Source of the DNA: Candidatus Gastranaerophilales bacterium | GTDB taxonomy: Bacteria > Cyanobacteriota > Vampirovibrionia > Gastranaerophilales > Gastranaerophilaceae | DNA length: 59,673 nucleotides | Assembly: GCA_905236775.1 (NCBI GenBank) | Contig: CAJOOM010000003.1 | Location: forward strand, 1-59,673 | Direction: 5' to 3' | Shown: one piece after another, positions 47,750 through 51,729 of the stretch | Position numbering within the stretch: the stretch's first letter is position 1 | Layout of the letters: each line of letters begins with the position of its first letter | Notes under the pieces: model-generated | Told to the model about the DNA's origin: nothing | Database searches by the model: none | The model's input: only the letters and a program-made list of their open reading frames with translations | Program-made: the position numbers and the translations under genes

Positions 47750-49216
47750 TTATATTTTCCCAATAAATTTTATATCACACTCCGATACAAGTTCTTCATG
47801 TGCAAGAATTGTTAAATCCGGTATAAATTCACTTAATATAACAAATATCATATGACGAATTTCCATCGGCACAACAATAACCGGATTAGTTATTTTTTTT
47901 GCCTTAGTAAATTTTGTAATTCTATCTGCAATATCTTCTACATCTTTTGCTTCAATTCTTACTATACCTTCTTCATCGTCTCTGCCTAAAAAGCCGTATA
48001 TTTTTTCTGTTATTTCATCGGATAATTCTATTACTTTGAGTTCGCCATCTACTGCTAAGTCTTTTATTATATGTTTTGATAGTGCTAATCTTACTTTATC
48101 TAACAAATCCTCTTTTGTCGGCTCACCTGCATAATCATTAATTTTTTCAAAAATATAAACTATATTTCGAACTGATACCTTTTCCCTTATTAAACAAGAT
48201 AGTAAATATTTTAAATCTGATGCAGTAATAAAGTCCGGTAAAATATTGTCTACAAGGAAAGAATTTGTTTCTATAACTTTTTCAACATAGTTATTAACAT
48301 CATTGTAATCCATAATATCGGAGACTTCTTCAATAGAAATTGTCTCTATGGCTTTCCCTATATACTCTACCGCACTCATACCATGAACCCAGAAATCTTT
48401 AACTTTCTGCTGAGGTATCCATATAAGTTTTTTGCCTGTAAGTTCGTCATTTAGTACAATATCATCATCAGAAACTTTGTAACCTTTAAGTTCATCTTTA
48501 TAAAATGCTATATAACCGGGAAATACAACTGTTCTAAATAACTCTATGTCATGTATTTTTATGTTAAATTCATTTTGACTAAGCTCATCACTGTTATGAA
48601 AATGTATATGAGGAATTACATAACCTAAAGAATCTGCGAGTTTTTGCCTTATTTTCACCGTTTCTGCAAGAAGATTATCATTCGCTTCCATAGAAATAAG
48701 TTCTAAAATCTCTTCAGAAAGATTTACGACAAACTTTTCTTCTTTAATAGTCGAAAACATTGTATTTGGGGATATCTCATTAACCAAAGCCTGCTTCAAA
48801 CCGTCTAATTGCCTTAATTCATCTGACATCTGGTTGTTTAAATGTGTTTTTTCTTCAGGAGATAGATGTTCACTCTCCAATTGAGATTTTATTTTTTTTA
48901 TACGTTCTTTTTGATTTGAAATCTTTAACTGAATTTCTTTACAAGATGCATACGGACTGGATGGAGCTGCAAGCATTTTTTCCATACGATATTTAAAGCT
49001 TGTAATATTCACTATATCATCTAAATCTGTCTTTTCTTCTTCTTGTTTCGGTCTCATAAAGATACAATTAAAATCATAAGAAGATTCTGTTTCAACTTCA
49101 TGCATAGTATATAAATCCCAACCGTCATCGGACATTTGGTTCAGTAAATCCTCCAATCCTTGTTTATCATCTGTTGGAACTGATTTTATTACATACTGCA
49201 TTTTTTTGTTGTACAT
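47750..49216 (-). CDS. Soluble FlhA/SctV C-domain-like protein with N-terminal DUF4177-like domain
   Basis: A 488-residue cytoplasmic protein. Residues 6-58 match a DUF4177-like module (LLNQMSDDGWDLYTMHEV, FMRPK). About 60-160 is a linker with coiled-coil heptads. About 170-488 follow the cytoplasmic domain of the export-gate protein FlhA: RQKLADSLGYVIPHIHF, EFNIKIHDIELFRTVVFPGY, KYLLSCLIREKVSVRNIVYI, DLLDKVRLALSKHI and a closing PVIVVPMEIRHMIFVILSEF. No membrane helices are present, whereas normal FlhA has eight before this domain. It could bind flagellar or other secretion chaperones. AGAGGA lies six bases before the ATG. Confidence 0.72.
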   Translation of the reverse strand: MYNKKMQYVIKSVPTDDKQGLEDLLNQMSDDGWDLYTMHEVETESSYDFNCIFMRPKQEEEKTDLDDIVNITSFKYRMEKMLAAPSSPYASCKEIQLKISNQKERIKKIKSQLESEHLSPEEKTHLNNQMSDELRQLDGLKQALVNEISPNTMFSTIKEEKFVVNLSEEILELISMEANDNLLAETVKIRQKLADSLGYVIPHIHFHNSDELSQNEFNIKIHDIELFRTVVFPGYIAFYKDELKGYKVSDDDIVLNDELTGKKLIWIPQQKVKDFWVHGMSAVEYIGKAIETISIEEVSDIMDYNDVNNYVEKVIETNSFLVDNILPDFITASDLKYLLSCLIREKVSVRNIVYIFEKINDYAGEPTKEDLLDKVRLALSKHIIKDLAVDGELKVIELSDEITEKIYGFLGRDDEEGIVRIEAKDVEDIADRITKFTKAKKITNPVIVVPMEIRHMIFVILSEFIPDLTILAHEELVSECDIKFIGKI

Positions 49217-49295: not shown

Positions 49296-49742
49296 CTATT
49301 TAGAAAGTTTTAATTTGTTGATAACACTTTGAGTAATATCTATTCCGCCTACAAAAACACCTCTTGCATCCATTACTGCATCAAGCTTTTGTTCTACCAT
49401 TACTGCTTTTGCTGCATCTTGAATTTTATTGAAAACTTCCTTTTCTCTTTTGTCTCTTAAGGCAAGATAAGATGATTCCTTAGCCTTAAATTCTTGAGAA
49501 ACTCTATCTTCGAATGTTTGTTTTTTTAGCGGTGTATCAAGTGATTTGTATTCTTTTTCTTTATCAACAAGATATTGCTGCATCTCTAAACCTTTTGCAT
49601 CAACTTCTTTTGTTACTTGCTTTGCATAATCATAATTATCAATTACTTTTGCATAATCAATATATCCAACACCACCTGCATTTGCAACTCCTGTCATTGC
49701 TACTAGAGCTAAAGCTACTAATCCTAATTTAATTCCGTTCAT
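49296..49742 (-). CDS. skp: OmpH/Skp-like periplasmic chaperone
   Basis: A 148-residue exported protein: signal peptide MNGIKLGLVALALVAMTGVANA, then a Skp-type start VGYIDYAKVI, a long helical hairpin rich in Lys/Glu (KGLEMQQYLVDKEKEYKS...SSYLALRDKREKEVFNKIQD) and a final VGGIDITQSVINKL. It holds unfolded outer-membrane proteins. The ATG at 49742 has AAGGAG eight bases upstream; a longer reading from 49760 would place that site inside the gene. Downstream of bamA, as is common. Confidence 0.88.
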   Translation of the reverse strand: MNGIKLGLVALALVAMTGVANAGGVGYIDYAKVIDNYDYAKQVTKEVDAKGLEMQQYLVDKEKEYKSLDTPLKKQTFEDRVSQEFKAKESSYLALRDKREKEVFNKIQDAAKAVMVEQKLDAVMDARGVFVGGIDITQSVINKLKLSK

Positions 49743-49800
49743 AATTATTACTCCTTTCATTAAATAATTTTACATTATATATTTTTAAAATTCCATTTTT

Positions 49801-51729
49801 TTAGTACATCATATCACCCACACCGAATGTGAAGTAACCATTTCTGTTTCCGTTCGGTCCCGGGTTGGTTAATGGGAAACCATAATCTATAGAAAGAGGT
49901 CCTACACCAGGCATATTAATCTTCAACCCAATACCTGCTGTAATTGCCTGCAACGGTCTGTCATACAAAGTACTTGCAATTGTAGGATTAAATACTGTAC
50001 CTGCATCAACCCAGAATGTTAGTCTTAAATTTTGTAGGAAATTCACTTTTAATTTGTCTACAAAAGGTATTGGAGTTGCCAATTCTGCTGAACCCATTAT
50101 GAATGAAGTACCGGTACCAACACCATTAACTTTGTATCCTCTGATTGTATATGGACCACCTAAACGATATGCCATAATTTCTGGCATGTTAGACCCATGA
50201 ATTTTCAAGCCGCCTCTACCGGTTAATGCTAATGAAGATTTTTTAGCTATAGGAATATATTTTTTTACTGAACCTGTTAAACGACCATTCGTTTTGTCAA
50301 AACCGTCAAGTCCGAATGCTTCCTCAAAACGTACATTTGCAATAACACCACTACGCGGGTTTGTAAAAGAATCTCTTGAATCATATGATAACCCTGGTGC
50401 AACTTTTAAGAAAAGTCCGCCCTCAAGTTCTTTTGCTCTGTCTGCAATACTTAAACCGTGTGAACGATACATATTTATCGCTCTTGCTCTGTCACCTTCT
50501 GATAAGTCAATATATTCAGCCCCTACTGTTAATGTTGACGACATGCGATTATTAACTTTTAATCTGCGAGCTAAAGTTCCTTCAAGTCCGATTCTACGTT
50601 CCATAGCAAGCGGTATTTGATAACTGCCTAAATCTCTGTAGTACAATCTACTCATTAAAGAATTGTCTGCATTTAAGAAGTGTGGTTCAAAAAAGCTTAT
50701 TTCTGCTTGATAATTAACTTTATTTAATATAGATGAATCACTCATTAAAACACCGGAACCAACCATACCTGTAACAGAAATTCTTTGATTTCTACCTCTA
50801 AAGTTATTATCGGATATTCCTAAAGAACCAAAAACACCGGTTGCAGAATCCAAACCGCCGCCTACAGAAACTGAAGCAGTTCGTTGTTCTTTAAGTTCTA
50901 TGGTTACATCGAATTTATCCGGATCATCTTTTGAAGCTTCAATTGTTCTGTTAACATCTTTAAAAGCTTGTGTTGAATACAACCTGACCAAATCCTGTTT
51001 TATCTGGTTTTCATTGTATACAGAACCCGGTTCTGTCATGATATTACGTTCTATTATATATTGTTTTGTTTTTTCATTTCCTGTTATAGATATTGAGTTG
51101 ATTCTACCTTCTGTGATACTTATATTAAGAGTTCCGTCAGGATCATCATACAGTGAATCAATCTTAGAAAGTATATACCCTTTGCTGTAATAACATTGAT
51201 TTATCTGTTCCATAGCCTGGTTTATAGCTGCTATATTTTGTGGTTTCCCTTTTAAAGGAAGTAAATATTGCATAATCTCTTCCGAAGAAACTACTGTATT
51301 ACCCTCTATTGTAAAATCTGTTATAGGAACATTTTCTTCTACAATAATTTTTAAAGAAATCGTTCCGTTTGAATTTTTAACAGGAACAGCTTTCATTCTT
51401 TCCGTAAAATATCCCAGTTTATAAATTGTTTTTAAATCTTGCTGCATTTTACTTTTATCATACAAATCTCCCTTTTTTAAAGACATTTGAGATAAAATGT
51501 AATCTGCTTTTATTATATTAGAGCCCAAAATTTCAATATCATTTATATAAGCAGTACTTGAATCATATGCGGATTCTTCTATATAATCCAATTCTGCCTC
51601 ATTAACAATATCTGTATCTTCCTCCGCTGAAACAATGCAAGGAACAGCAAGGGCAAATATTAGCAAGCCTGTAGATATTATATTTTTATATATACCGGAT
51701 ATATTATGCAAAATTTTACTCCAACGCAT
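49801..51729 (-). CDS. bamA: Outer-membrane assembly factor BamA (Omp85)
   Basis: A 642-residue outer-membrane protein. Signal peptide about 12-35 (ending CIVSA). POTRA domains fill about 60-290 (YINDIEILGSNIIKADYILS, ITDFTIEGNTVVSSEEIMQY, INSISITGNEKTKQYIIERN). The barrel follows, with IRGYKVNGVGTG as the loop-6 motif and a C-terminal strand ending in aromatic-type residues (YFTFGVGDMMY). It inserts beta-barrel proteins. It has three POTRA-like units, fewer than the five in proteobacteria. Its presence shows a diderm cell. Confidence 0.93.
   Translation of the reverse strand: MRWSKILHNISGIYKNIISTGLLIFALAVPCIVSAEEDTDIVNEAELDYIEESAYDSSTAYINDIEILGSNIIKADYILSQMSLKKGDLYDKSKMQQDLKTIYKLGYFTERMKAVPVKNSNGTISLKIIVEENVPITDFTIEGNTVVSSEEIMQYLLPLKGKPQNIAAINQAMEQINQCYYSKGYILSKIDSLYDDPDGTLNISITEGRINSISITGNEKTKQYIIERNIMTEPGSVYNENQIKQDLVRLYSTQAFKDVNRTIEASKDDPDKFDVTIELKEQRTASVSVGGGLDSATGVFGSLGISDNNFRGRNQRISVTGMVGSGVLMSDSSILNKVNYQAEISFFEPHFLNADNSLMSRLYYRDLGSYQIPLAMERRIGLEGTLARRLKVNNRMSSTLTVGAEYIDLSEGDRARAINMYRSHGLSIADRAKELEGGLFLKVAPGLSYDSRDSFTNPRSGVIANVRFEEAFGLDGFDKTNGRLTGSVKKYIPIAKKSSLALTGRGGLKIHGSNMPEIMAYRLGGPYTIRGYKVNGVGTGTSFIMGSAELATPIPFVDKLKVNFLQNLRLTFWVDAGTVFNPTIASTLYDRPLQAITAGIGLKINMPGVGPLSIDYGFPLTNPGPNGNRNGYFTFGVGDMMY

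Follow-up and report, generated by a model that had tools for sequence, protein, structure and literature searches.

Type III systems select their cargo at the cytoplasmic domain of FlhA and SctV, which has been studied as inseparable from the membrane gate to which it belongs. The flagellar chaperones of Salmonella dock in a hydrophobic dimple of this domain (FlhA-C) that contains Asp456, Phe459 and Thr490 (PMC8166844), and Gly368 of the GYxLI hinge is needed for its open–close motion (PMC9431611). The linker residue at the position of Trp354 packs on the neighbouring subunit in FlhA/SctV rings (PMC8213127, PMC8166844), and isolated FlhA-C and SctV-C domains form nonamers (PMC8213127). Among the Gastranaerophilales, earlier genome papers found complete flagellar gene sets in some members and read the subsets present in the rest as non-functional flagella (PMC4040986, PMC3787301, PMC5877343). 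The literature that we searched, in which subscription journals are thinly covered, mentions no soluble FlhA-C paralogue, separate second apparatus or type III system in this order.

The window analysed here is a stretch of 59,673 nucleotides from Candidatus Gastranaerophilales bacterium (contig CAJOOM010000003.1). Its reverse strand encodes a soluble FlhA-C protein behind two genes of envelope biogenesis:

47750..49216, reverse strand (−): gene of the soluble FlhA-C protein (488 aa), with orthologues in 363/373 genomes of the family
49296..49760, −: skp/ompH-like gene, on the upstream side across a gap of 79 nt (Pfam OmpH, 9.2e-13)
49801..51729, −: bamA (Omp85 with POTRA domains), at the head of the presumed operon (Pfam Omp85, 1.2e-44)

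The reading frame is intact from ATG to stop, without a frameshift, and AGAGGA lies 5 nt ahead of the start codon. Its product falls into five parts:

49043..49216, −: residues 1–58, small beta-alpha-beta-beta domain, DUF4177-like (model, weak Pfam match)
48965..49039, −: residues 60–84, low-confidence stretch, probably flexible (pLDDT <50)
48773..48955, −: residues 88–148, two long coiled-coil-like helices replacing the membrane part (88–113 and 120–148 in the model)
48746..48772, −: residues 149–157, equivalent of the FlhA linker (column conservation, ungapped offset)
47753..48745, −: residues 158–488, FlhA-C/SctV-C with all four subdomains (Pfam, PDB profile, model, Foldseek, VIA-align)

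The original prediction, an FlhA-C domain lacking its membrane part, is confirmed. Pfam FHIPEP (PF00771) matches residues 129–479 (2.1e-47) with profile positions 321–655, the entire cytoplasmic part and nothing of the membrane part; the N-terminal membrane domain with its TM helices and FHIPEP loop is thus absent from the window protein. The NCBIfam model for FlhA (TIGR01398) is matched at 5.6e-41, compared with 3.4e-26 for SctV (TIGR01399), and both equivalog cut-offs are missed (140.6 bits for a cut-off of 772 and 91.9 bits for a cut-off of 692, respectively). A profile built from 22 orthologues (A1) and searched against the PDB gave 3.1e-40 to Bacillus subtilis FlhA-C and significant matches to SctV-C of several injectisomes as well. 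The AlphaFold2 model (mean pLDDT 81, pTM 0.63) matches both FlhA-C and SctV-C over all subdomains: Foldseek gave E 1e-21 and a TM(target) of 0.85 to Salmonella FlhA-C, and VIA-align gave Z scores of 23–31 over 296–339 residues (best Z 30.9, over 339 residues). No membrane helix was found in the window protein by 19-residue hydropathy (maximum 1.64), and the median maximum over 133 orthologues is 1.44, compared with 2.98 for the membrane-bound homologues. It is thus almost certain that the protein carries the complete FlhA/SctV cytoplasmic domain. The domain had been placed in the last 320 residues; the match in fact starts at about residue 130–145, takes in the FlhA linker and covers about 350 residues.

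The N-terminal module is less firmly assigned. Its beta-alpha-beta-beta fold (strand 6–14, helix 18–30, strands 34–42 and 47–56) is predicted with good confidence both alone and within the whole protein, with a pLDDT of about 91–93 over residues 11–40. A small GW-type domain joined to FlhA-C had been correctly recognized, but its similarity to DUF4177 (PF13783) is weak: the N-terminus of the window protein alone scores 16.3 bits, below the Pfam gathering score of 25. Among the 22 orthologues, 18 N-termini match DUF4177 at E<0.1, the best at 5e-5, so that a relationship of residues 1–58 to this family is likely but unproven. Foldseek returned no relative of the N-terminal domain at E<0.001, the PDB profile search nothing meaningful, and the literature searched holds no description of a DUF4177–FlhA-C fusion. 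For helices 88–148, the PDB gave only matches to long helices of a generic kind.

We considered whether the protein could be what is left of a full-length FlhA, or be produced from one by a frameshift, a reading suggested by homology that is limited to the C-terminal half of FlhA. An intact skp lies directly upstream, where a severed membrane part would have to be, and the protein, with its own N-terminal domain, is found at full length in hundreds of genomes. Moreover, pairwise dN/dS within the genus is 0.02–0.055; dS is near saturation, which makes the ratio approximate but leaves it far below one. The gene is under strong purifying selection, and the relic reading is refuted, as is the assembly error or frameshift that the original prediction had named as one way in which it could fail. 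A viral origin was also checked. PHROG 12657 matches at 1.5e-24, a scan of IMG/VR confirmed nothing, and the only phage records with a match are two unannotated faecal contigs (23–24% identity), probably ordinary flhA in mislabelled contigs; the annotated plasmid matches are ordinary flhA too. The free FlhA-C without a membrane part is a real and strongly conserved protein.

In a sample of 373 genomes of the family, 363 (about 97%) have the full architecture and 10 lack it, a protein being called present when its best E was below 1e-60 (membrane homologues give 1e-30 to 1e-40). In the genus sample it is held by 57 of 58 genomes, although G036 has just a 228-residue piece, and G012 gave matches through membrane homologues only. 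The one genome sampled from a second family of the order encodes it at full length (G317, 1.5e-143). No full architecture occurs outside the order among the matches listed in the class and phylum samples, and the five genomes from other families of the class examined with PF00771 gave only full-length gates or pieces at contig ends. The gene of the soluble FlhA-C protein belongs to the core of the Gastranaerophilales and is not peculiar to a single genome.

A full-length flhA, which the original prediction proposed to look for elsewhere in the genome, was found twice. One product is the flagellar FlhA (C172, L001; 855 bits for the NCBIfam cut-off of 772). The second FlhA (C17, L002) reaches 709 of 772 bits for FlhA and 588 of 692 for SctV, missing both cut-offs, and is encoded in a fliE–fliF-like–x–fliH–flhA cluster; another cluster of this second system encodes a FliM/N-C protein, FliO, FliP and FliQ- and FliR-like proteins. 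Gene x (L084:8294-9316 (+) and equivalents), between fliF and fliH, occupies the place of fliG and has no Pfam or NCBIfam match. Loci of the second system were read in G000:C17 (L088), L084, L257, L252 and L253, and at a contig end of G095 a protein of 1641 residues with a flagellin-like start (L251:909-5834 (+)) directly adjoins the second-system FlhA. Flagellar-type FlhA, counting matches above 840 bits, occurs in 58 of 146 sampled family genomes (about 40%), and only about a dozen of 373 lack a clear second FlhA. FliP was found in 24/24 genomes, a FliI-type ATPase over its cut-off in 14/14 and rod-type proteins in 14/14, including genomes that lack flagellar FlhA; these inventories come from family searches, not from whole-genome annotation. 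Judged by gene content, nearly all genomes of the family have a second, divergent flagellum-like export system, even where flagellar FlhA is missing. In families f4–f10 the second system is present without the soluble protein. The 10 genomes without the soluble gene and the dozen or so without the second FlhA overlap in one 63%-complete genome only, the pattern that gaps in the assemblies would give. With so few losses co-inheritance cannot be demonstrated, and comparison of co-loss across the 373 genomes is uninformative because both genes are near-universal.

In a tree of 50 rows (LG+C20, IQ-TREE), all soluble proteins fall into a single clade (support 100/100). This clade groups with the second-system FlhA of families f1, f2 and f4 (branch 98/90; 97–98/89–90 across both trees), to the exclusion of flagellar FlhA and of the second-type FlhA found in f6 and f7. 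The second of these trees, larger and earlier, agrees once rows L078_0 and L080_0, unrelated ORFs of similar length, are left out. A tree constrained to join the soluble copies with flagellar FlhA is worse by 3.5 log units but passes the AU test (p 0.10), and the soluble clade has a long stem (1.5–1.9 changes per column). The soluble copy therefore probably descends from the FlhA of the second export system, a better but unproven reading because of this AU value and the long stem.

To see what has been kept of the docking machinery, residue columns were compared for the soluble (133), second-system (17) and flagellar (40) proteins, in a register taken from alignment to Salmonella FlhA-C (entries 6ch1 and 6ai2) and fixed by the F459A mutant. 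Five stretches are concerned:

48701..48718, −: residues 167–172 (SEEILE), equivalent of the GYxLIP hinge, with the hinge glycine (Gly368) replaced by serine
48611..48625, −: residues 198–202 (GYVIP), conserved subdomain 1 stretch, not the Gly368 hinge (G198 100%, Y199 92%, P202 97%)
48419..48448, −: residues 257–266 (DELTGKKLIW), equivalent of pocket stretch 456–465 (DPAFGLDAIW), with Asp kept and Phe459 replaced by Thr260
48389..48397, −: residues 274–276 (DFW), near-invariant in the soluble proteins only (D 95%, F 93%, W 98%)
48350..48355, −: residues 288–289 (K-A), equivalent of Thr490-His491 (column conservation)

At residue 167, the position of Gly368, serine is found in 94% of the 133 orthologues; in both kinds of membrane FlhA that these bacteria have, the column is 100% glycine. 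The GYVIP stretch at 198–202 resembles the hinge but was ruled out as its equivalent, since the Salmonella register and the columns place Gly368 at residue 167; this GYxIP stretch is common to the soluble, second-system and flagellar groups. In the pocket, the equivalent of Asp456 is kept in 96% of the soluble proteins. The position of Phe459 is Thr in 91% of them, Phe in 100% of flagellar and Tyr in 82% of second-system FlhAs; that of Thr490 is Arg (50%) or Lys (38%), 88% in all, compared with Thr in 82–100% of membrane FlhAs; and that of His491 is Ala in 83%, compared with His in 100% of membrane FlhAs. Of the three residues with which the pocket holds flagellar chaperones, Asp456 alone thus stays and two are replaced. 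The DFW motif is unconserved in membrane FlhAs. The linker, on the other hand, is conserved among the orthologues (S149 96%, P150 98%, M153 97%, Y/F154 95%). Met153 stands at the Salmonella Trp354 position by ungapped offset from E360 (residue 159); it is hydrophobic, not aromatic, and methionine occupies this position in 97% of the soluble proteins and 100% of the second FlhAs, which share the linker signature (N/S)P..M(Y/F) (NP..MY in the second FlhA). The soluble protein thus keeps the fold and probably the linker anchor, and as read from these columns the sites that define cargo docking are rewritten.

These results bear on the suggestion that a free FlhA-C might capture the chaperones of the true flagellum and so act as its decoy or regulator. 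The window's genome does encode a flagellar FlhA (L001) and Asp456 is conserved, but the soluble gene is present in about 97% of family genomes and flagellar FlhA in about 40%, and Phe459, Thr490-His491 and the hinge glycine are replaced. A flagellar decoy is largely refuted by this distribution, and we regard it as very improbable. The docking hub also suggested would mean docking something else by other means.

Among the functions first suggested, a part in another transport process fits best, the nearest relative being the FlhA of a second, non-canonical export system. We tentatively favour, as a possibility short of an even chance, that the soluble protein is a cytosolic adaptor of this second machine with binding surfaces of its own. 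The cytoplasmic domain of the second-system FlhA would have been duplicated, and the resulting soluble copy would still serve the same machine. Its N-terminal domain and the new surface around the rewritten pocket (DFW 274–276, Thr260 and the basic residue 288) may bind a particular cargo or partner, helices 88–148 may let it form oligomers, and through the conserved faces of FlhA-C and the linker it could be seated at the membrane FlhA ring or the associated ATPase complex, either on the outside or within. Having lost the hinge glycine and the chaperone dimple, it would serve as a scaffold with little motion, not as another docking platform that opens and closes in cycles. Alternatively, the protein could form a free nonamer-like ring that caps the second-system membrane FlhA ring or competes with it, as a gatekeeper or negative regulator. 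Of the features needed for rings, the fold is kept and so, probably, is the hydrophobic linker anchor; isolated FlhA-C and SctV-C domains assemble in this way (PMC8213127), and a ring that stays static would be in keeping with the lost hinge, but the additional helices of the model suggest a different oligomeric state, and we consider such a ring unlikely.

Several findings speak against the adaptor. Families f4–f10 have the second system and not the soluble protein, and since the hinge and the chaperone pocket are not kept, an export role is not implied by conservation of function-critical residues. The gene context points the same way: in the contigs examined, the soluble gene lies not beside the second system but in a bamA–skp cluster. 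The linkage figures refer to the 80 contigs closest to the query, 74 of which have room upstream. The position next to skp and bamA and outside a flagellar cluster, pointed out from the window, recurs there, with bamA near the orthologue in 73/74 and skp in 72/74. Near these 80 orthologues no export-system genes were found, except for one match to the unassigned second-system gene (x). The same cluster is kept in several distant genera, and the bamA–skp–gene region of the window holds no terminator-like site. Together with the rewritten hinge and chaperone pocket, this context supports the main rival, an exapted envelope factor: the FlhA-C scaffold would have left type III export and would now be expressed together with BamA and Skp, acting in the cytosol as a scaffold or regulator for the biogenesis of outer-membrane proteins and holding, for example, precursors or transcripts before Sec export. 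However, the count covers only the nearest contigs, and several divergent genera carry the gene elsewhere, for instance beside a clpP-like gene. A pyrimidine-nucleoside phosphorylase-like (33) or uridine phosphorylase-like gene (25), so named from a reading of the sequences and not from a family search, often stands between skp and the orthologue, so the context may be a housekeeping one. In addition, BamA and Skp work outside the cytosol, and the soluble protein has no signal or membrane segment. We therefore hold an envelope role to be somewhat unlikely, and retain the adaptor of the second machine as our working reading.

Other detached FlhA-C-like proteins occur in these bacteria. Among 24 genomes searched with PF00771, nine gave short additional matches (G000, G019, G032, G062, G069, G081, G086, G095 and G101), that of G062 being a broken piece. 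The window's own genome, one of these nine, holds such a protein (C139, 216 aa, L004), and further solo loci are L242, L243, L244, L246, L247, L248, L249 and L250. Most of these proteins have 212–296 residues, skip the subdomain 2 part and stop before subdomain 4; two have an N-terminal hydrophobic helix. By BLAST they are nearest to second-system FlhA or to the soluble protein, and their genes are scattered, with no export genes beside them in the stretches read. A protein of 593 residues in G070 (L245:6042-7823 (−)), whose gene adjoins response-regulator-like genes, consists of a strongly hydrophobic segment followed by FlhA-C without most of subdomain 2, and its N-terminus resembles gene x of the second system (26% over 98 residues, E 6e-07). 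This resemblance hints at a link between the detached FlhA-C modules and the second system.

A broader and rather doubtful possibility is that a second, rod-bearing flagellum-like secretion machine is served by several kinds of free FlhA-C-like protein: the soluble protein described here as the core type, and a number of short, fast-changing types without the chaperone-binding subdomain. If so, detached gate domains would be exchangeable cargo receptors or gatekeepers, a sorting layer that we know from no type III system. A conserved free-standing FlhA-C with rewritten pocket and hinge suggests that the domain can work apart from the membrane, and offers a natural comparison for deciding which of its features serve which function. 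The finding also points to a second flagellum-like apparatus where gene subsets were earlier read as non-functional flagella (PMC4040986, PMC5877343).

Compared with the known families, the N-terminus shares with DUF4177 (PF13783) the GW(D/E)LYSM pattern and the predicted beta-alpha-beta-beta fold, and differs in staying under the Pfam cut-off. With the cytoplasmic domain of SctV (TIGR01399) the protein shares the fold (VIA Z 23–30); it shows the same departures as from FlhA and scores lower to the SctV than to the FlhA model. FlhA-C (PF00771, TIGR01398) has in common with it the complete four-subdomain fold, the linker, the Asp456 equivalent and the GYxIP stretch at 198–202. Yet the window protein is only 15–22% identical to solved FlhA-C, lies outside a flagellar cluster, has no membrane domain or FHIPEP loop, carries a new DUF4177-like and helical N-terminus, and has replaced the hinge Gly368, Phe459 and Thr490-His491. 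The nearest relative in the trees is the second-system FlhA (L002), with which it shares the (N/S)P..M(Y/F) linker and an FE..(N/C)DY region, whereas that FlhA is a full-length membrane protein encoded in the fliE–fliF–x–fliH–flhA cluster and keeps the hinge glycine, a tyrosine at position 459 and Thr-His in the pocket.
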